Source: Salsipaludibacter albus
GTDB lineage: Bacteria > Actinomycetota > Nitriliruptoria > Nitriliruptorales > Nitriliruptoraceae
Assembly: GCF_019798055.1 (NCBI RefSeq)
Contig: NZ_JAHOPH010000003.1
Span: 1-64,000 of the forward strand
Length of the DNA stretch: 64,000 bases
Direction of reading: 5' to 3'
Below, piece after piece: positions 9,094-63,950 of this stretch (position 1 is the stretch's first letter; every line of letters begins with the position of its first letter). The translations under genes were made by a program, and so were the position numbers. Below the pieces are notes generated by a model. The model had not been told where the DNA came from and made no database searches. It was given only the letters and a program-made list of their open reading frames with translations.

Positions 9094-9098
9094 CCCAC

Positions 9099-9115
9099 CG
9101 CCGGCACCCCCGGCG
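9099..9115 (+). terminator. Weak hairpin after gltD
   Basis: A 6-bp stem (CGCCGG/CCGGCG) with a 5-base loop directly after the gltD stop. It is short and has no T tract, so it may or may not terminate transcription. Confidence 0.3.
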
Positions 9116-9222
9116 ACGGCTGCCTCCCACACGTCGGTTGGGGAGTGCGTGCCCGCTGGCGGGGGTGGATCCGACAACCGACGTGGGGCGGGTCAGCCGA
9201 TCCCGGTGATCAGGCGGGCTCG

Positions 9223-9825: not shown

Positions 9826-10035
9826 GCCGTGTCCTTCTCGGTGAACCTCGATCGGTGGACTCCGCGGGTCCTCGACCCGCTCCATCTCGGCACGAACCTA
9901 CCCACGACGCTCGTGCAGGCATGTGGCAGGGGCGCTCGTTCGCAAGAATCTGCTATCTCGGGTCACGACGCCCGTCTAGGGTTCGGGGCCCGGGGGGTCG
10001 ACTGGCGACCTCGCGTGGGGCGAAGGGGACCCTCC

Positions 10036-11571
10036 ATGAGTACGGAACTGAGACGACGAGGCGCGACGATCGTCGCGGTCGCACTGCTGGCGATGCTGAC
10101 GTCGGTGACGGCGGTGGCCGCACCGGCAGGCGCAGGCTGTGACGCGCGGACCAACAACACCTACCAGAAGCTGCTGGAGTGTGTCCGCGTCGACGGCGTG
10201 CGTGAGCACCAGGCCGCACTGCAGGCCATCGCCGATGCCAACAACGGCAACCGGTCCGAGGGGACGACCGGCTACACCGACAGCGTGGACTACGTGGTCG
10301 AGACCATGGACGCTGCCGGGTGGGACGCCGAGGCCGTGCCGTTCACCTACATCGGCGACCGCGTGGTGACCGACCAGCTCACTCCGGTCGAGGCCGTCTT
10401 CCAGACCGCCACCTTCACGGGCGGCGGAGAGGGCGACGTGACCGGACCCGTCACGGCCGTCGACCTGTCGATCGACGACCCGGCGGCCAGTTCGAGTGGC
10501 TGCACGGCCGACGACTTCGACGGCGTGGACCTCGACGGCCCGAACGACGTCGTGCTGCTCCAGCGGGGGGCCTGCAACTTCTCGTTCAAGGCGATCAACG
10601 CCGAGGCCGCGGGCGCCGAGGCCGTGATCATCGGCAACCAGGGCACCGACGGACGGGTCGGCCCGTACGCCAACGTGACGCTGGGCGGCGCCGACGTCGT
10701 CGACATCCCGGTCACGACGGCGTCCTTCGCGGCACTCCAGTCGCTGGCCGCCTCCGGTGCGACTGCCCACGTGGTGGTCGAACTGGACGTCGAGATCGAG
10801 TCGCTCAACGTGATCGCCGAGCTGGCCGGGGCCAACGACGACAACGTCGTGATGGCCGGGGCGCACCTCGACTCGGTGCCGGCTGGCCCGGGCATCAACG
10901 ACAACGGCAGTGGCTCGGCCGCGCTGCTCGAGGTCGGTGAGCAGCTGGCCAAGCTGCGACCGCAGAACACCGTGCGCTTCGCCTGGTGGGGGGCCGAGGA
11001 GATCGGCCTGGTCGGCTCGACCCAGTACGTCAACGGCCTGTCCGACGCCGAGCTCGACCGCATCGCGCTGTACCTGAACTTCGACATGGTGGGCTCGCCC
11101 AACTACGTGTTCCAGGTGTACGACGCCGACGAGTCCACCTTCACCGCGCCGGTCGTCGTGCCGCCGGGGTCCGAGGAGATCGAGGCGATCTTCGAGTCGT
11201 ACTACACCTACGCGGGTGAGCCCTACGACGACTCGGCCTTCAGTGGTCGCAGCGACTACCAGGCGTTCATCAACAACGGCATCCCGTCCAGTGGCCTGTT
11301 CACCGGCGCCGAGGTCATCAAGACCCCGGAGCAGGAGGCCATCTGGGGTGGCACGGCGGGCGACCAGTTCGACCCGTGCTACCACGCGGAGTGTGACACC
11401 TTCGACAACGTCAGCCTGCACGCCCTGGACGTCAACACCGACGCGATCGCCTTCGCGGTCATGACGTACGCCTACTCGACCGAGGACGTCAACGGTGTCC
11501 CCGGCAGCACCGTCCCGGGTGGCTTCACCATCCCGGAGCCGGCCGGACCCGAGGGCACGTTCGAGGACTGA
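10036..11571 (+). CDS. Secreted M28-family metallopeptidase with PA domain
   Basis: Predicted two-zinc aminopeptidase acting outside the cell. The 511-residue protein has a cleavable signal peptide (AVALLAMLTSVTAVAAPAGA), a protease-associated insert around residues 130-230 (LQRGACNFSFKAINAEAAGA), then the M28 catalytic domain. Metal and catalytic residues are recognisable: His/Asp in AGAHLDSVP, Asp in GINDNGSGSAALLE, the Glu pair in WGAEEIGL, Asp in LNFDMVG and His in CYHAECD. Start at 10036 gives the signal peptide and has AGGGG 8-12 bases upstream. Family is certain; whether it prefers free amino acids or peptides is unknown. Confidence 0.92.
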   Translation: MSTELRRRGATIVAVALLAMLTSVTAVAAPAGAGCDARTNNTYQKLLECVRVDGVREHQAALQAIADANNGNRSEGTTGYTDSVDYVVETMDAAGWDAEAVPFTYIGDRVVTDQLTPVEAVFQTATFTGGGEGDVTGPVTAVDLSIDDPAASSSGCTADDFDGVDLDGPNDVVLLQRGACNFSFKAINAEAAGAEAVIIGNQGTDGRVGPYANVTLGGADVVDIPVTTASFAALQSLAASGATAHVVVELDVEIESLNVIAELAGANDDNVVMAGAHLDSVPAGPGINDNGSGSAALLEVGEQLAKLRPQNTVRFAWWGAEEIGLVGSTQYVNGLSDAELDRIALYLNFDMVGSPNYVFQVYDADESTFTAPVVVPPGSEEIEAIFESYYTYAGEPYDDSAFSGRSDYQAFINNGIPSSGLFTGAEVIKTPEQEAIWGGTAGDQFDPCYHAECDTFDNVSLHALDVNTDAIAFAVMTYAYSTEDVNGVPGSTVPGGFTIPEPAGPEGTFED

Positions 11572-11586
11572 CCCGATCGGCACACC

Positions 11587-11618
11587 GGGCCGGGGATCCC
11601 ATCGGGGGTCCCCGGCCC
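11587..11618. terminator. Bidirectional hairpin between convergent genes
   Basis: Perfect 10-bp stem GGGCCGGGGA/TCCCCGGCCC with a 12-base loop, lying between the stop codons of the M28 peptidase (+) and the alpha/beta hydrolase (-). No T tract, as is usual for high-GC actinobacteria. Confidence 0.7.
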
Positions 11619-11632
11619 CGCCGTGTCGGCGT

Positions 11633-12481
11633 CTACTCCTCGGCGTGCTCGTCGCCGGTCGTCGGATGGCGGTGGAGGAGGTCGTCGATGGCGGTCACCA
11701 GGTCCCCGCCGTCCAGCAGGGCGCGGTCGTTGTGGTCGGCGCCGGGGACCACGACCAGGTCTGACGGACCGGCCGCGGCCCGCTCGACCCGTCGGGACTG
11801 TTCGACGGGGACGATCGTGTCGGCCTCACCGGCGACGACCAGCGTCGGGACGTCCAGGTCCGCGACGCGCTCGAGGTTGGGCCAGCGGTCGCGCAGGAAG
11901 GCCGCCGGCACGATCGGGTAGTGGACCCGGGCCACGTCGGCCAGCGAGGTGAAGGGGGAGCGCAGCACCAGTACGTCCGGCGGCCGTCGGGTCGCCAGTT
12001 CGACGGCGACGCCGGCCCCGAGGCTCTCGCCCAGGTAGGCCACGGTCGTCGAGGCGGCGTGTCGATCGACCCAGTCGCGGGCGGCGTCGGCGTCGCGTGC
12101 CAGCCCCGTGCTGCTCGGACTGCCCGGATTGCCCCCGTAGCCCCGGTAGTCGACGAGCAGCACGTCGTGGCCGCGTCGTGCCAGGGCCCGCGCCAGCGGC
12201 AGACGCCCGGTCCGGTTGCCGCCGTTGCCGTGGAAGACCACGACCGTGGCGGGCCGATCGGCGACGCCCGGACGACCCTCGAGGTGCCATGCGGCCAGGC
12301 GCAGGTCGTCGGAGGTCGCCAGGACGACCGGCGTGACGCCGGCCGGGGCCTCGGCCGGCACGACCTGGGAGGGGAAGTACACCAGTCGACGCTGGCCGAG
12401 CCATGCGCCGATCACGAGCAGGGCCACGAGTCCCGACAGCACCGCGAGGGCCACCACCTGTCGTTGCACGCTCCCGTCCAT
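11633..12481 (-). CDS. Membrane-anchored alpha/beta hydrolase
   Basis: Predicted serine hydrolase of the BEM46/YfhR type, about 282 residues. One N-terminal transmembrane segment (VVALAVLSGLVALLVIGAWL) is followed by a YFPS motif typical of the group, the oxyanion loop FHGNGGNRTGR, and the nucleophile elbow GESLGAG. The acid (GEADTIVP) and the C-terminal His (GADHND) complete the triad. The ATG at 12481 is preferred to a TTG at 12502; neither has a strong ribosome site. Substrate unknown. Confidence 0.85.
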   Translation of the reverse strand: MDGSVQRQVVALAVLSGLVALLVIGAWLGQRRLVYFPSQVVPAEAPAGVTPVVLATSDDLRLAAWHLEGRPGVADRPATVVVFHGNGGNRTGRLPLARALARRGHDVLLVDYRGYGGNPGSPSSTGLARDADAARDWVDRHAASTTVAYLGESLGAGVAVELATRRPPDVLVLRSPFTSLADVARVHYPIVPAAFLRDRWPNLERVADLDVPTLVVAGEADTIVPVEQSRRVERAAAGPSDLVVVPGADHNDRALLDGGDLVTAIDDLLHRHPTTGDEHAEE

Positions 12482-12840
12482 GGGTCCGGCGACGAGGGAC
12501 AAGAGGTGTGCGGGGCTCTCCGCGGTCGATGCGTGGTCGACGAGGGGGGGTTCGCCACCACGCGAGACCGAGATCGGAGATGCCCCGCACTGCTGTCAAG
12601 GTAGGTGGAAGGTGGCGGCCGAGGAAAGGGCTCGTTCCGCATGCCGTTCCGACGCCGCGGAGTGGTCGTCGCTTCAACGATTTCCACGCGCCACACGTCG
12701 GCGCCTCTCGATGGTCGCGGTGCCGTTCCGCAGCGTGGCACGGGACCGGGGTCCGGGGTGCCCGGGGACCGTGGTCGCCATTTGCCCGATCCACGGTGGA
12801 AGCAGTGCGATCCTCGTGCGAAGTGGGCCCGTCGTGCGCG
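12482..12840. other. Gap without a recognised gene
   Basis: About 360 bases upstream of the hydrolase and downstream of the methyltransferase operon. Short open frames exist on both strands but none has a recognisable domain, a good ribosome site or convincing codon bias. It presumably holds the promoter of the hydrolase. Confidence 0.5.
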
Positions 12841-13452
12841 TCAGGTCAGGCGGTGGACGCTGACGGCGTAGCCGCCACCCGTGTACGGGTCGCGGTCCCA
12901 CGTCGCGAAGCGGTCCTCGACGACCAGTCCCGCGGCGGTGCACCACGCGTCGTGGTCGGCCAGCGTCACCGGTGCCTCGTCCAGGGGGAGGTGGTCGGCG
13001 TCCAGGCCGAAGCCGACGACCAGGGCGCCACCCGGGACCAGGCAGGCCGCCAGGGTGGCGATCGCCCGGGACTCCGTGCCGGCGGCCAGCAGGGGCACCA
13101 CGTTGCCGGCGGCGACCACGACGTCGGCGCCCGGGGCCACGTCCCGCGGATCGAGCGTGGACAGGTCGGCCTCGAGCCAGGGGACCGCCGGTGCACGCTC
13201 GCGCGCGACGGCCAGCATCGAAGCGTCGAGGTCGACGCCGACCACGTCGTAGCCCCGCCGGGCCAGTTCGATGCCGACCCGACCGGTCCCGCACCCGGCA
13301 TCCAGGATCCGGCTGCCGGGAACGGCCAGGTCGGAGACGAAGTCCGCCTCGCCGTGGAGGTCGCGACCCTGTGCGGCCATGGCGTCGAACCGGGCCGCAT
13401 AGTCCCGGCCGGTGCCCTGGCCCGCGACGTCCTCCCAGCGACTCGGACTCAC
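12841..13452 (-). CDS. SAM-dependent methyltransferase, class I
   Basis: 203-residue Rossmann-fold methyltransferase. The AdoMet-binding glycine motif is LDAGCGTGRVGIELA, followed by the acidic strand end VVGVDLDASM and a motif-II-like segment ADVVVAAGNVVPLL. Substrate cannot be read from the sequence. The GTG start at 13452 overlaps the stop of the upstream gene by 4 bases (GTGA), so it is the third gene of a coupled operon with recQ. Confidence 0.88.
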   Translation of the reverse strand: MSPSRWEDVAGQGTGRDYAARFDAMAAQGRDLHGEADFVSDLAVPGSRILDAGCGTGRVGIELARRGYDVVGVDLDASMLAVARERAPAVPWLEADLSTLDPRDVAPGADVVVAAGNVVPLLAAGTESRAIATLAACLVPGGALVVGFGLDADHLPLDEAPVTLADHDAWCTAAGLVVEDRFATWDRDPYTGGGYAVSVHRLT

Positions 13453-13799
13453 GGCGTGCTCCCGTCCGGACCGTTCGCCAGATCGCGGAGGCCGGCGGCC
13501 CGCAGTGCCGCCCGGACCCGGGGCTGCGATGCGCGGTCGTCGGTCGGGGGGAAGTCACAGGCCGCCACCGTCTCGGCCAGGGCAGCACCGACGACGGCGG
13601 GCTCGACCGTCGACGACGCGGCCCGGAACAGCTCCACGCGGTGGGCCGGCTCGTCCGGATCGAGCAGCCAGAACACCCGGCCGTCGTCGGACCAGGCGAC
13701 CACCGGGTCACGATCGACGTCCCAGCGAGTCTCGGCGACCTCGCGCAGTCCGGGTGCGGGCACGCGACGGTCCCGGTCGGTCGGGTCGGGGACGCTCAC
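13449..13799 (-). CDS. Small conserved-looking hypothetical protein in the recQ operon
   Basis: 116 residues starting with GTG at 13799; no family recognised. The protein is soluble, with a WDVDRDPVVAWSDDGRVFWL stretch suggesting a small beta-rich N-terminal part and a helical second half. It is real rather than a chance frame because it sits between two clear genes with a 4-base GTGA overlap on each side: its start overlaps the recQ stop and its stop overlaps the methyltransferase start. Function unknown. Confidence 0.75.
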   Translation of the reverse strand: MSVPDPTDRDRRVPAPGLREVAETRWDVDRDPVVAWSDDGRVFWLLDPDEPAHRVELFRAASSTVEPAVVGAALAETVAACDFPPTDDRASQPRVRAALRAAGLRDLANGPDGSTP

Positions 13800-16138
13800 G
13801 GCCCGGCCGACAGGACGAGCGGGAGGACGTCGCGCTCGCCGGCCTCGGTCAGGCGGTGCGCCGCCGCCACCAGGGTCCAGCCCGAGTCGGTGATCGCGTC
13901 GACCAGCACCACCGGGCCGTCGGGGACGTCGGCGGCGGCAGCGGGGTCCAGCGCCAGTCCGCGCAACGCGTTGGCGGCCTTGTGTGGCGAGTTCGCCATG
14001 GTGCGCTGGGGCGGGGCGTCCGTGTCGACGAGCGCGGCGACGACCGGGAGACGTCCGAGCTCGCCCATCCGGCGGGCGACCTCGGCCGCAAGCTCGCCGT
14101 GGCGTCCGGAGGGGACCGGGACGAAGGCCACCGGCCGACGTGACCACGACCACCGGGCCAGGACCCGGGTGAGCCCCTCGACGACCTCGTCCAGCGCGGT
14201 CGCGTCCAGGTCGCCGGCCTCCGACGACGCCAGCAGGCGGTCGACGACGTCGTCCCAGCCGGAGCCGTCACCACCGGCCAGCGCGCGGCCCTGCAGTGCG
14301 CCACGGCCGGCGTCGATCCGACCCTTCACCTCGTCGAGCCCGGACGGCCACATCCGTCGCTGGCCGACGACGACGTCCCGGGTGCGGAGGTGCTCGCGTG
14401 CCTCGGCGACGACCTGCTCGTCGATCTCGACGTCGGGCTCCCAGCCGGTGCAGCCCTGGCAGCGGCCGCACGGCTGTGCGTCCGGGTCGTCAAGCACCTC
14501 GCCCAGCGCCTGCATCAGGCAGCGTCCCCCGTCGCGCCCGTCGCGCCCGTCGCTCCCGTCGCTCCCGTCGCTCCCGCCGCCCCCCTCCACGAACGAGCGC
14601 ATGATCGCGTGCTCGCGCCGGCGGAGGTCGGCCAGCCGCTGGTAGTGGCCGACGTCCAGCTGCCAGTCCACGCCGGTCCGCTGCCAGGCCGATCCGACCT
14701 TCTCCACGGCGCCGTCGACGTCGAGCACCTTCAGCAGCAGCTGGAGCCGCGACCGGCGCACGTTGACGGCGCGCTCGAGCTTCGGGACCGACAGGGACCC
14801 CCCGTCGAGCGCGTCGAGCAGTGCCTGGACCTCGGACTCGCGCGGCAGCCCCGCGACGTCGAAATGCTGCCAGATCGCCTCGTCCTTGCCGGTCGGGAGC
14901 AGCACGACCTCGGCGGTCTCGATGGCGCGACCGGCGCGGCCGACCTGCTGGTACCACGACACCGGTGACGACGGGGCGCCGAGGTGGACCACGAACGCCA
15001 GGTCGGGCTTGTCGTAGCCCATCCCCAGTGCCGAGGTCGACACCACCACGTCGACGTCGTTGGCCAGCAACCGGTCCTCGATCGTGCGGCGGCCGTCGGG
15101 GTCGACGTTGGAGTTGTAGGCGACGGCCTCGAGCCCACGTCCGGCCAGGAACGCCGCCACCCGCTCGCTGTCGGCGACGGTCAGGGTGTAGACGATCCCT
15201 GCCCGACCGTGGACGGGTCGGTGCCGTCGGACGAAGGCGTCGAGCCAGGCCAGTCGCTGCTCGCCCCGGTCGAGCCGGACGACCGCCAGCTGCAGCGAGT
15301 CCCGCCCCAGCCTGCCCCGCAGGGTGACCACGTCCGTGTCGTCGAGATCGCGGTCGCCCGAAGCGCCCCCGTCGCCGGGGTCTGCCCCTGGGTCGGATTG
15401 GGGGTCGAGCTGGCGCGCGACGTCGGTGGTGACGCGGGCGTTGGCCGTGGCCGTGCAGGCCAGCACCGGCGTGCCGTCGGCCAGGTCGCCGAGCAGGTCG
15501 GCGATGCGGCGGTAGTCGGGCCGGAAGTCGTGACCCCAGTCCGAGATGCAGTGCGCCTCGTCCACGACCAGCAGTCCGAGCCGGGCGGCCAGCGCGGGCA
15601 GGCGGTCCCGGAACGACGCCGCGTTCAGCCGCTCCGGCGAGATCAGCAGGACGTCGATCGCGTCGTCGTCGAGCCGCGCGAGGATGTCCTGCCAGTCGTC
15701 GAGGTTGGTCGAGTTGATGGTCTCGGCGGCCAGTCCCAGCCGCCGGGCAGCGGCGACCTGGTCACGCATGAGTGCCAGCAGTGGCGACACGACCAGGGTC
15801 GGTCCGCCCCCCTGGGCGCGCCGCAGGGCGGTCGCGATCCAGTAGACGGCGGACTTCCCCCAGCCGGTCCGTTGCACGAGCAGCACCCGCGCCCGGTCCC
15901 GGACCAGCGCCTCGATGGCCTCGCCCTGGTCGTCACGCAGGCGTGCGTCGGGTCCGGCCAGTCGTTCGAGCAGGTCCTGGGCCCCGGCACGGACGTCGAC
16001 CGGGTCGGCGTCGATGTTTGCGGTCGGGCTCGCGGGCACGGCTGCCTCGATGGCGGAGGTGGGGATGGAGGTGGCGGGCGCACGTCGGGTCGGACGTCGG
16101 GTCGGACGTCGGGTCGGACGTCGCCGGACCACCTCCAT
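13796..16138 (-). CDS. recQ: RecQ-family ATP-dependent DNA helicase with C-terminal phosphoribosyltransferase-like domain
   Basis: 3'-5' superfamily-2 DNA helicase for repair and recombination. The approx. 780-residue protein carries motif I (RTGWGKSAVYW), the DEAH-type motif II (VVDEAHCISDWGHDFR), motif III (ACTATANARV), motif VI (YQQVGRAGR) and a zinc-binding cysteine set (CLMQALGEV...CGRCQGC). After about residue 620 comes a second domain with the phosphoribosyltransferase signature VVLVDAITDSGWT, known in some actinobacterial RecQ proteins. The start is uncertain: the ATG at 16138 adds a basic RRPT-repeat leader encoded by a 12-bp tandem repeat, and a later start is possible. Confidence 0.9.
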   Translation of the reverse strand: MEVVRRRPTRRPTRRPTRRAPATSIPTSAIEAAVPASPTANIDADPVDVRAGAQDLLERLAGPDARLRDDQGEAIEALVRDRARVLLVQRTGWGKSAVYWIATALRRAQGGGPTLVVSPLLALMRDQVAAARRLGLAAETINSTNLDDWQDILARLDDDAIDVLLISPERLNAASFRDRLPALAARLGLLVVDEAHCISDWGHDFRPDYRRIADLLGDLADGTPVLACTATANARVTTDVARQLDPQSDPGADPGDGGASGDRDLDDTDVVTLRGRLGRDSLQLAVVRLDRGEQRLAWLDAFVRRHRPVHGRAGIVYTLTVADSERVAAFLAGRGLEAVAYNSNVDPDGRRTIEDRLLANDVDVVVSTSALGMGYDKPDLAFVVHLGAPSSPVSWYQQVGRAGRAIETAEVVLLPTGKDEAIWQHFDVAGLPRESEVQALLDALDGGSLSVPKLERAVNVRRSRLQLLLKVLDVDGAVEKVGSAWQRTGVDWQLDVGHYQRLADLRRREHAIMRSFVEGGGGSDGSDGSDGRDGRDGGRCLMQALGEVLDDPDAQPCGRCQGCTGWEPDVEIDEQVVAEAREHLRTRDVVVGQRRMWPSGLDEVKGRIDAGRGALQGRALAGGDGSGWDDVVDRLLASSEAGDLDATALDEVVEGLTRVLARWSWSRRPVAFVPVPSGRHGELAAEVARRMGELGRLPVVAALVDTDAPPQRTMANSPHKAANALRGLALDPAAAADVPDGPVVLVDAITDSGWTLVAAAHRLTEAGERDVLPLVLSAGP
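16084..16125. repeat. Short tandem repeat, 12-bp unit
   Basis: Three to four copies of a GGGTCGGACGTC unit lie at the 5' edge of recQ. If the start at 16138 is right, they encode the basic R-R-P-T repeats at the protein N terminus. Such a repeat could expand or contract without shifting the frame. Confidence 0.6.
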
Positions 16139-16333
16139 GGTGCCGTGCCGCTGGGACCGACGGGACGGCGATCGGCCGGACCGTGGACCGTGTCGTGGAC
16201 CGGCACGCCCTCCGTGGCCGCATGGCCGGTCCGCGGGCGTGACCAGTGTGGACGGCGTTGCTAGAGTCCCCCACTGCGTTGCTTCGACGATCCCAGACCC
16301 CGTTCGCGCCGCCACGCCGCCCCGAGAGTTTCC

Positions 16334-49668: not shown

Positions 49669-49743
49669 GCGCTGGTAGCTCAGTCCGGATAGAGCACCTG
49701 ACTACGGATCAGGCGGCCGGGGGTTCGAATCCCTCCCAGCGCG
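49669..49743 (+). tRNA. tRNA-Arg (anticodon ACG)
   Basis: Acceptor GCGCTGG/CCAGCGC, anticodon loop CTACGGA (ACG), T loop GGTTCGAATCC. CCA is not encoded. The integrase gene downstream reads toward it, so its 3' end is the probable attachment site. Confidence 0.95.
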
Positions 49744-49747
49744 CACC

Positions 49748-49933: not shown

Positions 49934-51205
49934 TCAGGATCCTCCGTCTCGGGGGGTGGAGTCTGTGTCTTCCGGGGGCGCAGATGCCGGGGGCTCACGG
50001 TGGGCCCGGATGGCCCGTGCGACGTCCTCTGCTGCCTCGGCCTGCATGCCGGGGAGGACGTGGCTGTAGACGTCGAGCGTGAACGCGGTCGAGTGGTGAC
50101 CAAGTCGTTCGGAGACGATCTTGGGGTTCACGCCCGCCTGCAGCCACAAGGTCGCCGTGGTGTGCCGGAGGTCATGGAGGCGAATGACCGGCAGGTCTGC
50201 TGCCTCCGCGAGTTGTTGGAAGCTCCTCGAGAACGAGTCCGGGTGGACCGGCGAGCCGTTCTCGCGCGTGAACACGAGCCCGTGTTCCTCCCAGGCAGGG
50301 CCCCAGTCGCGTCGGTCCTTGTTCTGGGCGTTCTGCCAGTTCTCGAGGACGCGGACGGTGTCGTGGTCCAGGTCGATGCTTCGCCGGCTCTTGGCCGTCT
50401 TCGGCTCGGAGACCTGCGGTGTGCCGTCGATGCTCACGTAGGTCTGCCGCACTGCGAGTGTCGACGTGGTGACGTCGACGTCTGTCCACCGGAGCCCGAG
50501 CACCTCGCCACGGCGCATTCCCGACATGGCGGCCAGGTGCCAGGCGGCGTACAGGCGATCGGAGCGTGCGTGGTCCAGGAATCCCGCCAGCTGGCGGGTC
50601 GACCACGTCTGCATGAGTCGGCGTTGCCGCTCGAGGTCGCGGCGTGGCGGGTCCGCGAGGTCGGCCGGGTTTCGCTCGAGGAGGCCCCAGCGGACCGCGT
50701 CCGCCAGCGCCTTGCGGACAATGGTGTGGATGTAGCGAACCGTCCTCGGAGAGAGACCGCCGCGACCATCCAGGCGCCCTGAGCGGAGGAGCTGGCTGTA
50801 CAGGCGGTTCAGGTGGCTCGCCCGCAGCTCCTGGAGGTTGGACTGACCGAGCGCCGGGACGACGTGGCGTTCGATCTCGCCCGCGTAGCTCGACCAGCTG
50901 GACTGGCGGAGATTGGGCGGGCCGACGGCAGGTAGCCATTCAGTGAGGAGGTACGCCTCGACCGTTAGGTCGTGACGGTCGACGAAGCTGTCTCGGTCGA
51001 CCTTGTGCAGGAGGTCGCGCAGCGCCCGCTCGGCCTCCTGGCGTGACTCGAAGCCGCTTCGCAGCTTCTGGTTCCGACCCCTGCCGGAGGCGGTGCCGAC
51101 ATCGACGCGGAATGCCCACGACGAAGAATCCGAACCGCAGGAACACACGGGACCGACCACCTTTGACCGGCACCCTCGGCACCTACGGAAGACGGACCCT
51201 TTCAC
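49934..51205 (-). CDS. int: Tyrosine recombinase (phage/ICE-type integrase)
   Basis: 423 residues. An N-terminal cysteine-rich strand (CRGCRSKVVGPVCSCG) is followed by an arm-binding domain, a SAM-like core-binding domain and the catalytic domain with Arg in SGMRRGEVLGLRW, HDLRHTTATLWLQ, LGHHS and the nucleophile Tyr in TLDVYSHVLP. Integrates DNA at an att site, here most likely the tRNA-Arg 3' end it reads toward. The GTG at 51205 overlaps the excisionase stop (GTGA). Confidence 0.95.
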   Translation of the reverse strand: MKGSVFRRCRGCRSKVVGPVCSCGSDSSSWAFRVDVGTASGRGRNQKLRSGFESRQEAERALRDLLHKVDRDSFVDRHDLTVEAYLLTEWLPAVGPPNLRQSSWSSYAGEIERHVVPALGQSNLQELRASHLNRLYSQLLRSGRLDGRGGLSPRTVRYIHTIVRKALADAVRWGLLERNPADLADPPRRDLERQRRLMQTWSTRQLAGFLDHARSDRLYAAWHLAAMSGMRRGEVLGLRWTDVDVTTSTLAVRQTYVSIDGTPQVSEPKTAKSRRSIDLDHDTVRVLENWQNAQNKDRRDWGPAWEEHGLVFTRENGSPVHPDSFSRSFQQLAEAADLPVIRLHDLRHTTATLWLQAGVNPKIVSERLGHHSTAFTLDVYSHVLPGMQAEAAEDVARAIRAHREPPASAPPEDTDSTPRDGGS

Positions 51206-52006: not shown

Positions 52007-54160
52007 ATGACCCTAAACGTGGTCCAAGGGTCGACGGAGAAGCCCGTCGCGGCCGAACTGCTGGTGGAGGCCTTGGCCGACTCGGATGTAGTCGGGCAGC
52101 TTTTTACTGGCTATCCGATCATCGGGTCAGCCGCCGGCAAGACGACGATAGATGCAACGTTGGTGTCGCCTGACATGGGGGTGGTGGTCTTTGACCTCGT
52201 GGAGGGGCCTGATCTTACGGGGACCGCTGAGCGACAGGATGACGCTGCTAACAAGCTGGTGTCTCGACTAATCACCAATCCCGGGTTGGTCGACCGCCGA
52301 AGCCTCAAGATTCCCGTATCCACACTGTCCTTTGCGCCGGCTACTCAGGGCCGTGATGTCGCAGGCGATTATCCGGTGGCCCAGAAGGACACGGTCCTTG
52401 GGATCCTCGAAGGAATGCGGGGCGAGAGACTCAATGACGAGTTGTATCGGACTGCTCTGTCAGCCATCCAAAGCATCTCCACGATCCGGAGCGCGCGACA
52501 GCGGCGGCAAGTGCGGGACGAATCCTCTCGTGGCGCGATTCTGAAACGCCTTGAGGACTCGATCGCCACTCTGGACAATCAACAGAGTGCTGCCGTGATT
52601 GAGAGCGTGGACGACGTCCAGAGGATTCGTGGCCTTGCCGGATCGGGGAAGACGATCGTGCTGGCCTTGAAGGCTGCGTACTTGCACGCTCAGCATCCAG
52701 ATTGGCGGATTGCCGTAACCTTCAATACACGATCACTTAAGAACTACTTCAAGAGACTCATTACGAACTTCTCGCTTGAGCAAGTCAATGAGGAGCCCGA
52801 TTGGGAGAATCTCCGCATCCTGAACGCCTGGGGGGCGGCTGGTGGTCCTGAGCGTGAGGGGATCTATCATGAGTACTGCTCACGGCATGCTGTTCGATAT
52901 CTGGACTTCGGGTCTGCCAAGCAGCTCTACGGGTTCAATGATGCCTTCTCGGGCGCAGTCGCAGACGCGCGGTCCCGGGTCACCAATCCAAAGAAACTCT
53001 ATGACGCCATCCTCGTGGATGAGGCCCAAGATCTCCCGCCAGCGTTCTTGCGAATATGCTATGACATTCTGGGTCCAGAGAAGCGACTCGTGTATGCATA
53101 TGATGAACTCCAGGATTTGCATGGTAAAGGGCTTCCGCCAGCGGAACAGATCTTTGGCGCCGATGACGCCGGGCGCCCTCGGGTCAGCTTTTCGACCGGA
53201 ACGAGAGAGCTCGAGCGTCGAGATATCATCCTCGAAAAGTGCTATCGAAATTCTCGACCTGTCCTCATAAGCGCCCATGCGGTCGGCTTTGGGATTTACC
53301 GGGAGCCGGCGGACAGTGAACCGACTGGCTTGGTCCAGATCTTTGACGAGCCGGACCTATGGCGTGACATCGGCTATCACGTTGAGTCCGGGCCCCTAGC
53401 TCCTGGAGAACGAGTCGTACTTGCAAGAACTCCGGAAACTAGCCCCCGGTTTCTGGAGGCTCATTCCGATCCGGCTGACTTGGTATCGATAATGAGCTTC
53501 CCATCTCGTGATGCCCAAGATGAATGGGTGGCAGAATCGATTAGGCGCAATATTGAGCAAGAGGAGCTTCGTCACGATGACATCATGGTCATCAACACCG
53601 ATCCATTGACAACGCGAGAGAACTTGGGCCCCTTACGGAAGCGTCTGCTTCAACTCGGAATCGATTCGCATTTGGCCGGTGTTGACGCTGACCCTGATGT
53701 TTTCTTCAGTCAAGGTGATTCTTCAGTTACGTTTACAGGAATTCATCGGGCAAAGGGGAATGAGTGCGGCATGGTCTATGTCGTGAATGCCGAAGAGACT
53801 CATTCAGCGCGTAGAAATTTGGCCCGTATACGGAATCGACTGTTTACCGCTATAACTAGGAGTAAGGCATGGGTGCGGGTCTGTGGCGTGGGTCCACAGA
53901 TGGAAGTTCTTGGTGCTGAGTTTCTTGCGGTCCGTGAGCACGAGTTTGTTTTGGACTTTGTGTATCCGACGGATGAGATGCAGAAGCAGCTCCGGATTGT
54001 TCACCGTGACATGTCGCCGGATGAAGAGCGAAAGTTGGCTGAGAAGGAGCGGTCATTGTCAGAGTTACTGCAGGCATTGAGGTCCGGTAATTTGTATGTT
54101 GAGGATCTTGATCCTGGCTTGAGGGATGAGATAGTTCGGCTCTTGTCCCATGAAGAGTGA
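52007..54160 (+). CDS. SF1 DNA/RNA helicase with N-terminal nuclease-like domain, putative defence protein
   Basis: 717 residues, lower GC and more mixed codon use than the chromosome. Walker A GLAGSGKT (about residues 209-216), Walker B ILVDEAQD (335-342), YRNSRP, IHRAKGNECGMVYVV (about 577) and RNRLFTAITRSKAW (about 609) are the helicase motifs of the UvrD/Rep and DUF2075 type. The first 70 residues contain IDATLVSPDMGVVVFDLVEG, laid out like a NERD nuclease core but lacking the E-x-K lysine. The DUF2290 gene overlaps its end by 11 bases, so both form a two-gene unit. Not a named system that I know. Confidence 0.85.
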   Translation: MTLNVVQGSTEKPVAAELLVEALADSDVVGQLFTGYPIIGSAAGKTTIDATLVSPDMGVVVFDLVEGPDLTGTAERQDDAANKLVSRLITNPGLVDRRSLKIPVSTLSFAPATQGRDVAGDYPVAQKDTVLGILEGMRGERLNDELYRTALSAIQSISTIRSARQRRQVRDESSRGAILKRLEDSIATLDNQQSAAVIESVDDVQRIRGLAGSGKTIVLALKAAYLHAQHPDWRIAVTFNTRSLKNYFKRLITNFSLEQVNEEPDWENLRILNAWGAAGGPEREGIYHEYCSRHAVRYLDFGSAKQLYGFNDAFSGAVADARSRVTNPKKLYDAILVDEAQDLPPAFLRICYDILGPEKRLVYAYDELQDLHGKGLPPAEQIFGADDAGRPRVSFSTGTRELERRDIILEKCYRNSRPVLISAHAVGFGIYREPADSEPTGLVQIFDEPDLWRDIGYHVESGPLAPGERVVLARTPETSPRFLEAHSDPADLVSIMSFPSRDAQDEWVAESIRRNIEQEELRHDDIMVINTDPLTTRENLGPLRKRLLQLGIDSHLAGVDADPDVFFSQGDSSVTFTGIHRAKGNECGMVYVVNAEETHSARRNLARIRNRLFTAITRSKAWVRVCGVGPQMEVLGAEFLAVREHEFVLDFVYPTDEMQKQLRIVHRDMSPDEERKLAEKERSLSELLQALRSGNLYVEDLDPGLRDEIVRLLSHEE

Positions 54161-54833
54161 GCAAGACAAGCTCTCGGCGGTTGGCCTTCTCGCAAAGATC
54201 AATGGTATCGTGATATGGATGGTCGAAAAGGGGCTGGCCGACGATCAACGGTTTTCATATATAGTCGATGAGGGCACATCAGAACTTGTTACGTACCCGT
54301 CGGAACTCGACTATTCATACGTTCTCAGAGAGAGACCATATGATGAGACATATAACGCATTGAAACGGTCGAGAGCATACAGCCTTTCACTCCTGGATGG
54401 CGGGCTCGTGCAGATGTCGTACAGGGTTGAGGGCGAAGCGTGTGTGTGGCATCGCTTGGCGTACCTACCTAGCCCCTCATTGGAGCCATATCAGAACGAT
54501 CCGGAGCGATATGAGCGTGATGTCATGTTTGCTGAGGTCATGGATACAAGGATCGTTACCACTCCGTTGCGTTTCGACTTTGACCCCGCTTCAGCCGATA
54601 GCGCTGAGCACCCGTCCTCCCACCTGACTTTGGGCCAGTACACAAACTGTCGTATTCCTGTTTCTGCACCTGTAGCCCCAGACAGTTTCGTGGACCTGAT
54701 TCTCAGGAGCTTCTACAACACCGCCGCCCGACGCCTATCTGAGTCGATGCCACGCGATGGCCCTAGGTTCCCAAACTGTCTGCATCCCGATCATGAACCC
54801 CAAATTCACCTTCGAGTCCCTTCGCGGAACTAG
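54150..54833 (+). CDS. DUF2290 family protein paired with the helicase
   Basis: 227 residues. The segment HLTLGQYTNCRIPVS, followed by the LILRSFYNTAARRL end, is the DUF2290 signature as I remember it. No catalytic motif is obvious. It starts with ATG 11 bases before the helicase stop, indicating coupled translation. AT-rich codons like those of the helicase indicate recent joint transfer. It may act as sensor, adaptor or effector for the helicase. Confidence 0.72.
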   Translation: MKSEQDKLSAVGLLAKINGIVIWMVEKGLADDQRFSYIVDEGTSELVTYPSELDYSYVLRERPYDETYNALKRSRAYSLSLLDGGLVQMSYRVEGEACVWHRLAYLPSPSLEPYQNDPERYERDVMFAEVMDTRIVTTPLRFDFDPASADSAEHPSSHLTLGQYTNCRIPVSAPVAPDSFVDLILRSFYNTAARRLSESMPRDGPRFPNCLHPDHEPQIHLRVPSRN

Positions 54834-56166: not shown

Positions 56167-56211
56167 AGGGCTAGGTTTGACGCTCCGCGCGGGATGCCGA
56201 TTCTAGGCCGT

Positions 56212-56291
56212 GTGGTCCGCTGGCCCGCGGGGTAAGCGGGCCCATCCCGGCCGCGGTCAGCGTCGGGTTGGTCCAGGACGGCGGCGATCGC
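56212..56291 (+). repeat. Diverged direct repeat, left copy
   Basis: About 80 bp matching 61465-61545 at roughly 80% identity, same orientation. It shares GCCGCGGTCAGCGTCGGGTT exactly. The two copies flank the NACHT gene. Weaker likeness continues for about 80 bp on the right of each. Confidence 0.65.
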
Positions 56292-56539
56292 GGGATCCCG
56301 GGATCCTGCCAGCCCTACTCCGTTCTCAGCCTCCAGGATCGATCGTGCGCCGGTTGTAGCCTTTCGTCATTCCGGCAGGGGTCGGATGATTGAAGAGCCG
56401 GAATAGGCGCCTTGGTGCCGGGAGAGATGGCGTCGCGTGTTGTCATCCGCCAAGTCTGCGGCGTAGGTGTTGTCGACGGCTCAGGCGAATCGGGCCCGCA
56501 TGTAGCGGTTGACGTGCAGGCCGATGAGTCTCGGGGTTC

Positions 56540-56987: not shown

Positions 56988-59900
56988 TCAGAGAGTCGCA
57001 GGCAGACCTAGCTCATGGCGGCGAGCGAGGGTCTCGAGACCGCTGCGTTTTGACGCAATCAGGGTAGAGCAAAGGGCCTGAGCGAGCTCGTTATCCAGCG
57101 AATTGAAGTCATCGCGACCGTCCAAGACTGTACGGATGAAGTTGACGTTGGTGCGTTCTCCCAGTCCAGATATCGCAGGCAGTACGCGTGATACGACGAG
57201 CCGTGACGGCGCAAAGGGCTCTTCGCGCATTCGGTTGACAAGGGCAGAAACTCTGCCATAGTCGACATCGGAAGGATCAACGTGAAGACGAAGCCAGTCC
57301 ACAAATACTTCCGAAACTAGCGTGTCGGATATGTCGAGAAGGAGCGCGGCCTCCTCTTCGGAGGCATTCATCGCGATGTATCGAGCCAGTCCTTCAGAGA
57401 AGTGCGTTCGCACGAAGCGATCAGGAAACGTGTCGACCCCATGATCGAGCCATGAGTGTTCGAGGGAGGGATCCAAATCGAGGCTCGAAAAAAGAGAGCC
57501 GAGTTCGTCCCAGCAACTGTCCTGGCGCAGAATAGACTCTAGGAAGAAGCGAAAAATAAGTGGCGATCCGAGAATCTGCCGCCTAAGCGATGCCACGGCC
57601 TCGGCACACCCAACAGCCCTTGCCGACAATCTAAAGCCGTTGTCCGTCCAGAGTGCGAGACTATCGACTATCCAACCCCTTACGGCCGCATCCTGCACTG
57701 CAGGAAGTTCCTCAGCGATGGTCGTCGCGACCTCGGACCGATCGCCCCCCCGCCGGAAAGACAAGTCAAGTACTTGTAGATAGGGAAACCCCTGGGAACC
57801 CAGGAAGGCTGAAGTCCAACTAGCGGGAGCCGGGGCCTGCAAATCAGATATCTTGAAGCCAGCCGTCGTCCAGCGCTCTTCCGTTGCCAGCAGCCCGTCC
57901 ACTGTCACGCGAGGAAGGTCGTTGACCGCAGCCCGCACGACATCCCATCCATGATGACCGCCAGCAGCGATGAGGATCGCAAGAGGCCACGGGAAGGATG
58001 AAGACACAAAGTCGCGCTGAACTTCTCCCAATGCTTCGAGAACATCTACCATCGCCCGCAAGTCTAGATCTGAGTCCGTTCTCAACAGGCGCACGAGTGG
58101 TCTCAGAGAGGCCCACCCAGGCTGCTCAAGTGAAAGCAGCCACTCCAAGTCACCGGCGATAACTCCGTCGCTGTCTCTGAGGGATGTAAAACTGACTCTA
58201 GCAACAGAACCCGAGGGACTAGAGCGCAAGTCACCATCATCTTCCCTTCGCAGTAAAGCCGAGACAGATCTGCGCCCCTTTCCTAGGTGAATCGTGCGCG
58301 CATCCAAAACATGTTCGAGATCATGGCCACCTAGCAAGAAAGAAGTGTCAATTGGTATCGGTCCTGACATCTCCAGCGAATCTCGAATTAGATCGAGGGA
58401 CGTGCCAGCCAGAACAGGCGAATGGATGTGGGCAGCCACAATCCCCGACTGCGTCAGCTCCTCGAGCATTTCTGGCTCTTCGAGCCGTTCTCGGACTCGA
58501 TCGGAACGATCGGCCAGGTCGAGCGCAAAGGACAGAAGGGGAATGTCCGGGTTGGATGCGGCCAGCTTCTCAAGGACAAAGTGTTCAAACACCTCTAGCG
58601 CAGCGTGGTCATCCAGCATAGTAGCGGCGTGGATCCAGCCGTGGCCACGCTTTCCAACAGCCTTAAGGACTTCACGTGCGAGGGACTTCCGAAACTTCGG
58701 GGCACTTACCGAACCGTCCTCAAGTAGATCTCGAGCCAAGTCCGCACCCGCGCAGTACCACCCGAGCAAGAAGTCTTCCGTAGGCTCGTTCAAGAATTGG
58801 CATGTCTGAACGACAACTCGGCCCAAGTAGCCACGCCTGGCAAAGATGCCTCCGGCAAAGAAGAGAAGCACATTGCGCCAGCTTGTCAGCGCACCCATGT
58901 ACTCGAAACGAGCCTCAACCTCGTCGTCAGGGGCGTCGAGCAACGCCTGAGCTGCCATGAACTCTTGAAGTGAGCGGATCTCGAAACCTACTTGAAACTC
59001 CTCTAGCTCTACTAGGAAGACCAGCCGCTGAGCAGCGGCTTCCATAATTTGCTCGGAAATTTGTTCCAGTTCATCCCCTGAGTAGCCTTGGCTAGTGAGT
59101 TGTCTGCGAACGATGGTTCGCAATTCATTCCGCGAGAGTCGGGCGTCCGTTCCACCGCTTGACTCAGCCTCGATCTGCAGTCGGAGACCAACGTGCCTGT
59201 GAATAGCCTCGATGTCGATCCTGTGGCTTCGCAGGATCGCACTGGTATCGATGCCGCGTTCGAGCTCTCTGTTGTACATGACAGTGAAGTATGAGTCGAA
59301 GAGTTCAAATCTCTCGCGTGGCGGCGCTCCGATACGCTCCAGCAACGTAGTCATAATTGTGACTTGCAGAGGCGTGGTCATGAGCCGTTGAGTAGAAGGT
59401 TCTTCGGCGGCAGTGTTCAACCTTCTAACTGTGGTGCGCTGCTTCTCGGTGTCGCCACGGAACCGAGCGGTGACCAGCTTCTTTGCGTATGAAAGCGCGG
59501 ACCTCGCGTCCAGGTTTTGAAGCGTCAGATGTATATATCCATCTTCGAACTCCGCCGAGTATCCCTGCGGTCTTGTGGTAACTACTAATTGCAAGTTCGT
59601 ATCGGGAGATGCGACATCCACTGATAGTTCCGTGATTGCCTGGACAACGTCAGACCGATTCGACGAAGCGGGCACTTCGTCAAGCCCGTCCAACAAGATT
59701 GCGACGGGTGTCTTGCGAAGCCACTCTCGAAGTTGTGCGACAGAAAGATCTAGATCGGCAATCTCGGAGAGGCGCTTGCATAGGTACCGGATCAGCGATT
59801 GAGAGTTGCTAGTATCAAGCCACTTTGCGAATGACGGTAGATCAACGTGGAACGGAAACCGCGAGACCGGAGGTAGGGTCAAGGCTTCACTGGCGAGGCC

Positions 59901-60863
59901 TTCTTCGACGTCCCGAAGGATCTTGATGGTTTCCTCTGATAGCCTGTCCTTCGGTACTCGACCAAGAATGGCGGCCCGCTGAGCTTGGGCATAGAACTGG
60001 ATGATGGTGGACTTGCCTTGACCTGGCCCCCCAAGCAAGACGAATCGTGATTCGAGTCGACTCTTCGCCTGCGATCTCGAATCTTCGGACTCCATACTGA
60101 TGGGTTGTTGCCCTCCTGACAAGAGAGCATTCATGACTGTCTGAGACGGTTCTCCCCGTCCGCGCCCCCTTGTCTGAGTACCTGCTTGAACATCGATGTC
60201 CGTGAAGACGTTTCCAATCAGGATCCGACGATCGGTGGAGACGGTAGTTTGTTCCAAGCGGGCGTATTGGTCCCTCAGGAACTCCTTTTGCATGGCCAGC
60301 TCAATGCCTTGACGAACAGTTTCTTCGAAATCTTTAACTTGTTCACACAAGACGGCTATTATGTCAGAAGGCGTTATGAACTCCGAGTAGGTTTTGCGGA
60401 CGGTGTCATGAATATCTAGTAATCTGCAGAGTTCAGAGTAGTCCCATACTCGGTAGTCGATCAGGGAGGAGTTCTGCTGGTACTCCTTGAGTTTTCGGCT
60501 AGCTGAATCCTTTCCGCCCGTTCTCAGAACTCCACTTAGCGATACATTTGTGGCAAATATATAATAGGCGGGAATCCTTTTTGCGTCTGATAGAGATTTG
60601 AGCTCACTGGACAATTGGCTGAGCGCCCAAGGGGAATCATTTTGTTTCAGTACCTGGCGATACTTGACTTGAATTATGCCTGGCTTGTCCCACGCAGCGT
60701 CATCCGATCGATATTTCGGTACCTCTCGAAACGTCCCGTCGCGCTGCCCGTCTCGTCCGTCCCCGAATACCACGGTCGTTGGGCCAAGTTCCGCTTTGGC
60801 CAAGGCGCCAACCATGTGTTCGAAGTACCTGGGCCCGAGGCGTTGGAAGTCATAATCGCTCAT
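56988..60863 (-). CDS. STAND NTPase: Mrr-like nuclease - NACHT - repeat sensor
   Basis: 1291 residues, low GC. The N terminus is a restriction-endonuclease-like domain (residues 1 to about 150): FEHMVGAL, FGDGRDGQRD (Asp38) and IIQVKYR (Gln65-x-Lys67). The NACHT ATPase follows: Walker A GGPGQGKST (about 277-285), Walker B AILLDGLDEVP (about 386-396), sensor VVTTRPQGYS, and the EFMAAQALL end. The last 600 residues are helical, resembling HEAT-like repeats and probably the sensor. This order matches bacterial NLR-like defence proteins (Avs/bNACHT). ATG at 60863 is preferred (AGGA 8 bases before) over 60872. Expected to kill infected cells by DNA cleavage after sensing a phage protein. Confidence 0.88.
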   Translation of the reverse strand: MSDYDFQRLGPRYFEHMVGALAKAELGPTTVVFGDGRDGQRDGTFREVPKYRSDDAAWDKPGIIQVKYRQVLKQNDSPWALSQLSSELKSLSDAKRIPAYYIFATNVSLSGVLRTGGKDSASRKLKEYQQNSSLIDYRVWDYSELCRLLDIHDTVRKTYSEFITPSDIIAVLCEQVKDFEETVRQGIELAMQKEFLRDQYARLEQTTVSTDRRILIGNVFTDIDVQAGTQTRGRGRGEPSQTVMNALLSGGQQPISMESEDSRSQAKSRLESRFVLLGGPGQGKSTIIQFYAQAQRAAILGRVPKDRLSEETIKILRDVEEGLASEALTLPPVSRFPFHVDLPSFAKWLDTSNSQSLIRYLCKRLSEIADLDLSVAQLREWLRKTPVAILLDGLDEVPASSNRSDVVQAITELSVDVASPDTNLQLVVTTRPQGYSAEFEDGYIHLTLQNLDARSALSYAKKLVTARFRGDTEKQRTTVRRLNTAAEEPSTQRLMTTPLQVTIMTTLLERIGAPPRERFELFDSYFTVMYNRELERGIDTSAILRSHRIDIEAIHRHVGLRLQIEAESSGGTDARLSRNELRTIVRRQLTSQGYSGDELEQISEQIMEAAAQRLVFLVELEEFQVGFEIRSLQEFMAAQALLDAPDDEVEARFEYMGALTSWRNVLLFFAGGIFARRGYLGRVVVQTCQFLNEPTEDFLLGWYCAGADLARDLLEDGSVSAPKFRKSLAREVLKAVGKRGHGWIHAATMLDDHAALEVFEHFVLEKLAASNPDIPLLSFALDLADRSDRVRERLEEPEMLEELTQSGIVAAHIHSPVLAGTSLDLIRDSLEMSGPIPIDTSFLLGGHDLEHVLDARTIHLGKGRRSVSALLRREDDGDLRSSPSGSVARVSFTSLRDSDGVIAGDLEWLLSLEQPGWASLRPLVRLLRTDSDLDLRAMVDVLEALGEVQRDFVSSSFPWPLAILIAAGGHHGWDVVRAAVNDLPRVTVDGLLATEERWTTAGFKISDLQAPAPASWTSAFLGSQGFPYLQVLDLSFRRGGDRSEVATTIAEELPAVQDAAVRGWIVDSLALWTDNGFRLSARAVGCAEAVASLRRQILGSPLIFRFFLESILRQDSCWDELGSLFSSLDLDPSLEHSWLDHGVDTFPDRFVRTHFSEGLARYIAMNASEEEAALLLDISDTLVSEVFVDWLRLHVDPSDVDYGRVSALVNRMREEPFAPSRLVVSRVLPAISGLGERTNVNFIRTVLDGRDDFNSLDNELAQALCSTLIASKRSGLETLARRHELGLPATL

Positions 60864-61033
60864 ACAGTCCATCCTGCAAACAAGGTGTCCCTCTTGGTGG
60901 AGCGGTCGCGAAGTGCTGATGGGTCTCGACAGTCTTGCGATCAGTCGTGAGATTTCTTGTAGGAGGCTAGCGCTGGATGACTACGGATGGTGGCTGAGGG
61001 AGGTCTGCTTGAGTCCTGCAAATGTGCTAGACG
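60864..61033. other. Upstream region of the NACHT gene
   Basis: 170 bases between the NACHT start and the oxidoreductase remnant; nothing recognisable apart from its presumed promoter. Confidence 0.4.
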
Positions 61034-61225: not shown

Positions 61226-61464
61226 CACCACAACCTGTCCACCCACTCGCCGCCACGGCACAAGCCGCGGGATGTCTGCGCACTGACCGTCAGGACCTGG
61301 CCCGCCGCCCGACCGGCCGCGCACAGCGATTGTCCTGCTCTCAACAAGGGAGTACGGGTATCTACGGGATCTCCGAGGTTCCGGAGCACCTGAACGGAGC
61401 GGCGCGACATCGCACGCCTGGATATTGCACGCCTCGCAAGGTCCGGATCCTCATTCAAGTCGGC
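61226..61464. other. Gap with no recognised gene
   Basis: About 240 bases without clear coding signal; short minus-strand frames have no known domain. Confidence 0.4.
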
Positions 61465-61545
61465 GTGGTCCGTTGGCCCGCGGGGTTGGCGGGCCGGGGT
61501 TGTGCCGCGGTCAGCGTCGGGTTGGACCAGGGCGGCGGCGATCGC
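61465..61545 (+). repeat. Diverged direct repeat, right copy
   Basis: Right partner of 56212-56291 (see there). Lies 240 bp after the oxidoreductase remnant. Confidence 0.65.
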
Positions 61546-61975
61546 ACTGTTGGTGGAGCCTCCCATCCCTTCCTTCGTACCCAGCCTTCGGTCGATTGTC
61601 CGTCGGTTTGTAACTCGTGGTCATCTTTCGTGTGCAACGTGGAGGCTGGTCAACGTGGGGTGGCGTCGTGCGAGTGCGGGGTCGGTGCTCAAGGTGCGGC
61701 GATGGCGTGCTGGCGTCGTGGGTCGCAGGTCTGTGGGGAGAGTTGAAGAAGAGGTTGAGTTCGTACAACCTGCGTCGGTTCGACGGTTTGGTCGCGCGCC
61801 GCGTCGCCGTCGAGGATGCCGTCGTCAGTGTCGCGACCTGAGCGCGTCCGGACCTGACCCGCCGAGCGCGACACCATTGATGGGGCAGGACCGGGGCAGG
61901 GGTCGGCGACCTGCTGGCGGCCAGCACCGGAGAGGGCTTCTCCCGACCGGTGCTCGCATGGTCGGTCGCATTAGG
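61546..61975. other. Gap with a doubtful small ORF
   Basis: A 74-residue open frame (61617-61841, +) with a GELKKRLSSYNLRRFDGLVA segment has no recognised domain and no good ribosome site. Otherwise nothing seen. Confidence 0.35.
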
Positions 61976-62521: not shown

Positions 62522-63016
62522 CTACCGGTCGCTCAGCTCCATGACGCGCAGGAACATCCAGAGGGCTCGTCCAACGTTCAGGGCCACGAAAACGACCGCC
62601 CACATGGCGACCCACCCGAGCCACCCCCACCCGAAGGACGTGTCGACCACCCAGCTCAGCGCCACCAGACCAGTGCCGAGAAGGGCACGGCCGATCGACA
62701 TGACCCATGTCTTCGTTAACTTCGTCATGGAGCGCTCGTCGCGCAGGTGTGGGCTGCGGCTCCGAACAAGGCGAGCGATGCTCAGGGCGGCCATTAGAAA
62801 GCCGGTGACTGTGGCCAGCCACGTGGCCGACTGCACCATCAGAGTCCTGCGTGAAGCCTCATCGACGACGGCCCACAGGCCGAAGATCCAACTCAGGACG
62901 AGCCCCGTGCCAACCGCAACCGTGGCGATGACGAAGTCCCTGCCAGGGCGATCAAGGATTTGCACTCTGACTTGGCGGTTGCCCCAGCGTCCGAGGGCTA
63001 CCGCCAAGAGAACCAT
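62522..63016 (-). CDS. Four-helix membrane protein of an accessory gene pair
   Basis: 164 residues with four transmembrane helices (FVIATVAVGTGLVLSWIFGL, WLATVTGFLMAALSIA, LLGTGLVALSWVV, WLGWVAMWAVVFVALNVG). ATG at 63016 is preceded by GGAG. It starts 34 bases after the stop of the upstream acidic-protein gene, so both are probably cotranscribed. A membrane effector role in defence is an inference from the arrangement. Confidence 0.65.
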   Translation of the reverse strand: MVLLAVALGRWGNRQVRVQILDRPGRDFVIATVAVGTGLVLSWIFGLWAVVDEASRRTLMVQSATWLATVTGFLMAALSIARLVRSRSPHLRDERSMTKLTKTWVMSIGRALLGTGLVALSWVVDTSFGWGWLGWVAMWAVVFVALNVGRALWMFLRVMELSDR

Positions 63017-63050
63017 TTGGCTCCGTCGAGTGGTCTCTGGCGCTTCCGAC

Positions 63051-63950
63051 CTACTCGTCGTCGCTAGCGAGGATTCGGGCGAGGCGACCATGCTCTGCAT
63101 CATAAGCCCCTTCGATCGCGGAAACAGCATGTGTCCGGAGAACGCTCCGGCTCTCTCCAACGTCCACCTGGATCCGGTGGATCACCAGTTGCTCTAGGAG
63201 GTCGATCGGTTCGGCGCCATCCTCGTAGTCCATTCGCAATTTGGCGCGCTTCACCGTTCCTCGACGCTCGAGAGCGCTGATGAACCGTTGAATCCAGCCC
63301 TCCTCCTTCACCGCCTCGGTCTGGTCGTCGTCGTCATCCCACCAGATCGACATGGAGATCTTCTTCGGGTCGCCCGTCGACCGCCTCGCATGATCCACCA
63401 TTGAGGCGACTCCCGTCGCGTCGTCGTCGTCATCGTCGATCACGGGAAGGAGATCATCCACAGTGATCGAAAGAGACTTCAACTCGTTCCCCTCCTGCAG
63501 CTGCGCAACTACGTCCGGCTCGATCACGGGGTGCAGGGACACCCGGTACGTCTCGGCCGCGAACGACAGATAGCGGCCCAATCCGGCTGAACTGGGACCA
63601 TCAGTGTTGCGGAGCACTGCGACAAGGGGCGCGTCGAACAGCACCAAGTTCGTGCCCTCGCCCAAGCTGCGACCCTCACCGATGGCGTCTTCGAGGCGAG
63701 TTATGTTCCCGTCGTCATCGATGAGCTTGGGGAAGCCGGTGTCTCTGATGCGGTGAACGCGAATCCAACGGCGTCCGTTGATCATGTCAGCGTCTGCGAT
63801 CATCTGAGGTCGAGTGCCGTGCTGACGATCGCCCATCGGTAACCCAACGATCCGATCATGAATGGCCTTGACCTCGGCGGCGGTGCAATAGGGCCGAGTC
63901 TCGGATTCCACGCGGTGAAGGGTGTAGAAGTCGACAGTTGCTTTGGGCAT
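63051..63950 (-). CDS. Acidic 299-residue protein, possibly DUF6731-like
   Basis: Complete gene; ATG at 63950. The N terminus PKATVDFYTLHRVES, a run of Asp residues (LPVIDDDDDD) and WWDDDDD, and an end reading VVSAIEGAY-like (HAVSAIEGAYDAEHGRLARI) recall short phage-linked proteins I know as DUF6731, but this is from memory and weak. Cytosolic. It precedes the four-helix membrane protein, as sensor-plus-membrane-effector pairs do. Confidence 0.6.
   Translation of the reverse strand: MPKATVDFYTLHRVESETRPYCTAAEVKAIHDRIVGLPMGDRQHGTRPQMIADADMINGRRWIRVHRIRDTGFPKLIDDDGNITRLEDAIGEGRSLGEGTNLVLFDAPLVAVLRNTDGPSSAGLGRYLSFAAETYRVSLHPVIEPDVVAQLQEGNELKSLSITVDDLLPVIDDDDDDATGVASMVDHARRSTGDPKKISMSIWWDDDDDQTEAVKEEGWIQRFISALERRGTVKRAKLRMDYEDGAEPIDLLEQLVIHRIQVDVGESRSVLRTHAVSAIEGAYDAEHGRLARILASDDE

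Follow-up and report, generated by a model that had tools for sequence, protein, structure and literature searches.

In animal NLRs, the sensor restrains the NACHT module until a trigger binds, and the NACHT then oligomerises. The bacterial proteins closest in architecture to the one considered here are bNACHT25 and bNACHT32 (clade 6), in which a PD-(D/E)XK nuclease is combined with a NACHT; they degrade DNA upon MS2 infection and the nuclease Asp is needed for this (PMC12169576). The succession of nuclease, NACHT and sensor is thus by itself a known design. In this work we have analysed a 64,000-nucleotide stretch of the Salsipaludibacter albus genome (the window), which encodes a protein of this kind, P0001; what is of interest here is the widespread, uncharacterised sensor family to which its C-terminus leads. 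Like bNACHT25 and bNACHT32, P0001 carries an N-terminal PD-(D/E)XK nuclease, a central NACHT and a helical C-terminal sensor in a single protein. The C-terminus of bNACHT25/32 is an NCH1 domain, whereas Pfam finds none in P0001, the proteins being compared by description and not by sequence alignment. No NCH domain was found in Pfam scans of P0001 or its relatives, with NCH2 and NNH5 models present in the library and NCH1 lacking a positive control. The Walker A motif, a D-G-x-D-E Walker B and an N-terminal effector domain are traits of bacterial NACHT proteins, and the C-terminus, about 550 aa long, helical and fast-diverging, has the right place and length for the sensing region of a bNACHT protein. 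Avs3 and Avs4 of the AVAST systems (PDB 8dgc, 8dgf) also resemble P0001 in their order of nuclease, NTPase and repeats and match it weakly in Foldseek.

The gene lies at positions 56988..60863, exactly as the preliminary description had it, on the minus strand, which had been left unstated. It reads from the ATG at 60863 to a stop at 56988 (1291 codons plus the stop) and is intact; its open run spans 1330 codons, and none longer than 396 arose when the region was shuffled 200 times. We prefer this start to the one at 60872 because an AGGA (60872-60875) stands 8 nt upstream of it and because the relatives begin with M-x-DYDL. The gene has a GC content of 0.55, against about 0.72 across the first 48 kb of the window, and it is single-copy in its genome. 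Six other NACHT-like matches, in large open frames of 1269-1872 codons, occur elsewhere in the genome (contigs C16, in two places, C11, C32, C10 and C78), and none of them resembles P0001 by sequence.

A PD-(D/E)xK nuclease domain of the Mrr_cat type is predicted for residues 1-160 (60384..60863, minus strand, as are all parts of the gene). Across 25 aligned sequences D38 of the DGxR motif (60750..60752), R41 and K67 never vary and Q65 hardly does; D38 and the Q65-V-K67 motif (60663..60671) are the predicted catalytic residues. The Mrr_cat model is matched by 10 of the 25 family members, with P0001 itself falling below the cut-off (E=0.021), and REase-type PADLOC models match residues 1-170. 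The predicted structure of the domain (pLDDT 83) shows the element order alpha-beta-beta-beta-alpha-beta of the PD-(D/E)xK fold, while a nuclease profile matched no chain among the PDB sequences. The NACHT module follows at residues 180-745 (58629..60326), with nucleotide-binding, winged-helix and helical parts. Its Walker A motif GGPGQGKS (residues 278-285, with K284; 60009..60032), the Walker B/NACHT motif DGLDEV (residues 392-397; 59673..59690) and R431 of TTRPQG (residues 429-434; 59562..59579) are invariant among the relatives. Pfam NACHT matches at E=2e-5, just under its curated cut-off. Superposed with VIA-align, the NACHT model fits NOD2 (Z 19.8, rmsd 9.4, 417 residues), NLRP3 (Z 19.0, rmsd 10.4, 409 residues) and NLRC4 (Z 18.5, rmsd 5.7, 433 residues), the high rmsd being what a model with hinged domains might give. 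The likeness to these animal NLRs (Z 18-20 over roughly 410-440 residues) extends to the nucleotide-binding, winged-helix and helical parts of the NACHT; they carry CARD or PYD where P0001 has its nuclease, their C-terminal sensor differs, and no LRR was found in P0001. The Mrr-like nuclease proposed in the preliminary description is thus borne out by its conserved residues, its predicted fold order and the Mrr_cat matches of its relatives, and the NACHT by its invariant Walker A and DGLDEV motifs, the Pfam match and the NLR superpositions. Lys67 and GQGKS, which had been singled out as key sites for mutation, were both apt choices.

More questions are raised by the C-terminal helical sensor region (residues 746-1291; 56991..58628), which matches nothing in the family libraries. 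In a BLAST comparison with the first relatives this half of the protein looked like an orphan. That reading was rejected: a profile made from the C-termini of nine other long-form proteins, with P0001 left out, scored the P0001 sequence at 22.2 bits, while no reversed or shuffled decoy exceeded 7.4. Removal of the Bradyrhizobium sequence from the profile lowered the score to 13.1 bits, and that of the best decoy to 1.8. When the sensor was compared by hhalign with A4, an alignment of the sensor regions of long-form relatives, the match (93%, E=3e-7) covered a conserved core at residues 913-1073 (57645..58127), where P0001 has W, PW and EERW...D...GFP and the signature AExRW...D...GFP is aligned; the C-termini of one short-form and one more distant relative, used as controls, gave 0.1% each. 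Judged from these alignments, the C-terminus of P0001 belongs, though highly diverged, to a sensor family of about 560 aa, found in long-form relatives from at least six phyla (Chloroflexota, Thermodesulfobacteriota, Pseudomonadota, Acidobacteriota, Myxococcota and Actinomycetota), with members from Bacillota matching it more weakly. In pairwise alignments P0001 and the long-form relatives are mostly 31-45% identical in the nuclease and NACHT but only 19-29% in the sensor, and we therefore regard the sensor as fast-evolving; in several of these pairs the sensor score is near the shuffled level.

Earlier, the C-terminus had been described as a long helical repeat region of no recognised family. 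It is indeed predicted to be almost wholly helical, although only residues 640-820 or so are modelled confidently. The sensor regions of the family members found no match in Pfam scans, NCBIfam, PADLOC or PDB sequences, but they do have distant kin in each other, as the long-form sensor family. The structure-based comparison of the sensor that the preliminary description had suggested yielded, with a poor model (pLDDT 56), nothing beyond unspecific matches of the ARM/HEAT-like kind, none above Z 9.3. No characterised sensor resembles that of P0001 by sequence, and a new trigger is possible.

How widely is this protein distributed? The family surfaced only through plasmids, a phylum search and a profile scan. 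A tblastn search of plasmids returned 61 records; in the best of them the match is confined to residues 1-738, with 29-35% identity, and their hosts include Streptomyces, Rhodococcus, Variovorax, Priestia and Klebsiella; the profile scan of genomes reached relatives up to 40% identical, so that residues 1-738 have counterparts of 29-40% identity in many phyla. Five other genomes of the 395 in the phylum sample hold a relative. Single-protein scans of genome contigs and viral contigs with P0001 found nothing, and searches of its close relatives and of its class found no relative. A phylum search with the sensor alignment A4 also found nothing, but this cannot show absence, because the gene in the window itself was missed too; for use against viral sequences the alignment varies too much. 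The short-form relatives, in most of which the NACHT is followed by about 170-250 aa, form one clade (support 100/99), whereas long-form relatives, P0001 among them, have about 500-650 aa there and form a grade in the tree. The uncharacterised long-form relatives (L030, L031, L032, L034, L038, L012, L116 and others) share the full-length architecture of P0001, with 31-40% identity over residues 1-738 and a homologous sensor core, although the sensors as a whole have diverged as described above.

Not all members of the family carry the same effector. In the tree P0001 has as its sister, with support of 99/96 and each on a long branch, L051 from the myxococcotal Deltaproteobacteria bacterium UWPOB_DELTA5 (7809-13450 of its locus). 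In L051 the nuclease is absent, and a PtuA-like ATPase (PADLOC E=5e-47) is joined in one protein to the NACHT and long-form sensor; a PtuB-like gene (E=7e-19) lies directly downstream. By its sequence, L051 appears to be a Septu-like system that a NACHT switch controls. In L053, an NNH5 domain forms the N-terminus on a NACHT of the P0001 family. The relative in Nonomuraea gerenzanensis (L013, 5989-9666) has lost the nuclease motif and reads SRSTRAAF and VQVAF where others have DGxRD/E and QxK; nuclease action is therefore not universal in the family, and this member is perhaps a decoy or has a different effector action. These three cases would fit a trigger unit made of the NACHT and sensor, to which replaceable effectors are attached. 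We tentatively propose, with rather less than even confidence, that the widespread, unnamed sensor family with the core W...PW...AExRW...D...GFP senses a phage feature that known Avs and bNACHT proteins do not use, and that it travels with the NACHT as a portable trigger driving different killers, the Mrr nuclease here and Septu PtuA/PtuB in L051.

The surroundings of the gene are those of an integrated mobile element. A tyrosine integrase (49934..51205, minus strand; Pfam Phage_integrase E=3e-22) adjoins a tRNA-Arg (acg) at the island edge (49669..49744, plus strand) and is followed by a Helicase and DUF2290 pair (52007-54833; PADLOC E=3e-281 and 5e-70); one system of this kind blocks phage T7 (PMC9122126). 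Farther along the element are a ParA-like gene, read from its sequence, and conjugation genes that include a T4SS coupling protein (E=7e-38); beyond these, on the same contig at about 75-82 kb, come a type IIG R-M protein (11329-16275 of locus L115; PADLOC 1806 bits) and then an RmrA-type gene (L115, 16519-17631). A second att copy of the tRNA-Arg end, which would mark where the element stops, did not turn up in the 34 kb that follow. The contig also holds four copies of a GC-rich repeat, each roughly 165 bp long, all in one orientation and 75-83% identical (56192-56355 and 61440-61606 in the window; 64187-64348 and 64975-65129 on the contig, C23), with the arms GGCCCGC...GCGGGCC and TGGTCC...GGACCA. 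The first two copies bracket the nuclease-NACHT gene; within this genome the repeat is confined to this contig, and two further genomes from the class have a single partial copy each. It has no Rfam match as a known RNA, its folding is near the shuffled level, and it may mark a recombination or cassette boundary. Between two of its copies the minus strand encodes, at 62522-63950, an unassigned frame of 212 aa that is overlapped by a DUF6731 protein (63051-63950).

In our view P0001 is most likely an NLR-like immune receptor of the STAND/NACHT type, encoded by a single gene that this element carries among its defence cargo; the sensor of P0001, once triggered, would let the NACHT oligomerise and the nuclease cut DNA, so that infection is stopped. 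Because the genes next to its relatives include no conserved partner, we take it to act on its own. At rest, the helical sensor would keep the NACHT inactive and nucleotide-bound; on meeting a product of a phage or another invader, the NACHT would exchange its nucleotide and oligomerise. The N-terminal Mrr-type nuclease domains, brought together in this way, would then cut DNA, and the cell would be killed or arrested, halting the infection (abortive infection). We infer these steps, from sensing to abortive infection, from the logic of animal NLRs and from bNACHT25 and bNACHT32 (PMC12169576). A defence role is supported by the context: the integrase at the tRNA, the Helicase and DUF2290 pair and the type IIG R-M protein on the same island, and Wadjet beside a relative, the long-form Arthrobacter protein L037, after which come JetA, JetB and JetC. 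The reading also draws on the intact gene with its conserved nuclease and NACHT residues, the superposition on animal NLRs, a sensor that diverges fast yet keeps a homologous core, and the effector swaps in L051 and L053. The mobile-island setting and the match to bacterial NLR-like immune proteins asserted in the preliminary description both agree with these findings. Points against the immune-receptor reading are the Pfam NACHT and Mrr_cat scores just below their curated cut-offs, the poor structural model of the sensor, the rarity of the family and the motif loss in L013.

Could the trigger, instead of a phage, be a competing plasmid or conjugative element, with P0001 protecting the mobile element that carries it, and the host, from rivals? 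Its gene does sit in an element with conjugation genes, its relatives are common on plasmids, one of them adjoins Wadjet, which is an anti-plasmid system, and tblastn found no relative in the phage collection. However, mobile elements carry defence genes of all kinds and the tested proteins of closest architecture answer to phages (PMC12169576), and we hold this explanation to be unlikely. It is less likely still that P0001 is a diverged Avs-type protein, similar to Avs3 or Avs4, whose C-terminal repeats recognise terminase or portal. The order of nuclease, NTPase and helical C-terminus is shared, and Foldseek with residues 1-760 lists Avs4 (E=2e-6) and Avs3 (1e-5), but the NACHT modules of animal NLRs score better in the same search, no Avs-named PADLOC model matches even at E<=1 (with no Avs protein as a positive control), and neither the N-terminal nor the C-terminal half, used as a profile, retrieved the Avs3 and Avs4 chains from PDB sequences. 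A clear assignment to a known Avs type, which the preliminary description had named as the result that would overturn its reading, was thus not found. Direct recognition and cutting of modified DNA by an Mrr-type nuclease and NTPase, as in type IV restriction and without a protein trigger, is very improbable. The Mrr_cat-like nuclease is indeed joined to a P-loop NTPase, but this is a NACHT with NLR-type winged-helix and helical parts and not a McrB-type AAA+ GTPase, which Pfam did not find in P0001, nor did it find a DNA-modification reader domain, the sensor region being undefined in that scan, and the C-terminus is predicted to be helical.

Taken as an NLR-like immune receptor, P0001 adds a sequence-defined subfamily, present in at least six phyla, to the nuclease-NACHT immune proteins. 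Its sensor belongs to no named family and has a clear core motif, which offers targets for mutation. The Septu ATPase fusion in L051 suggests that NACHT-sensor units may be graftable onto other defence effectors and, if this is true, it would make the coupling of sensor and effector directly testable.
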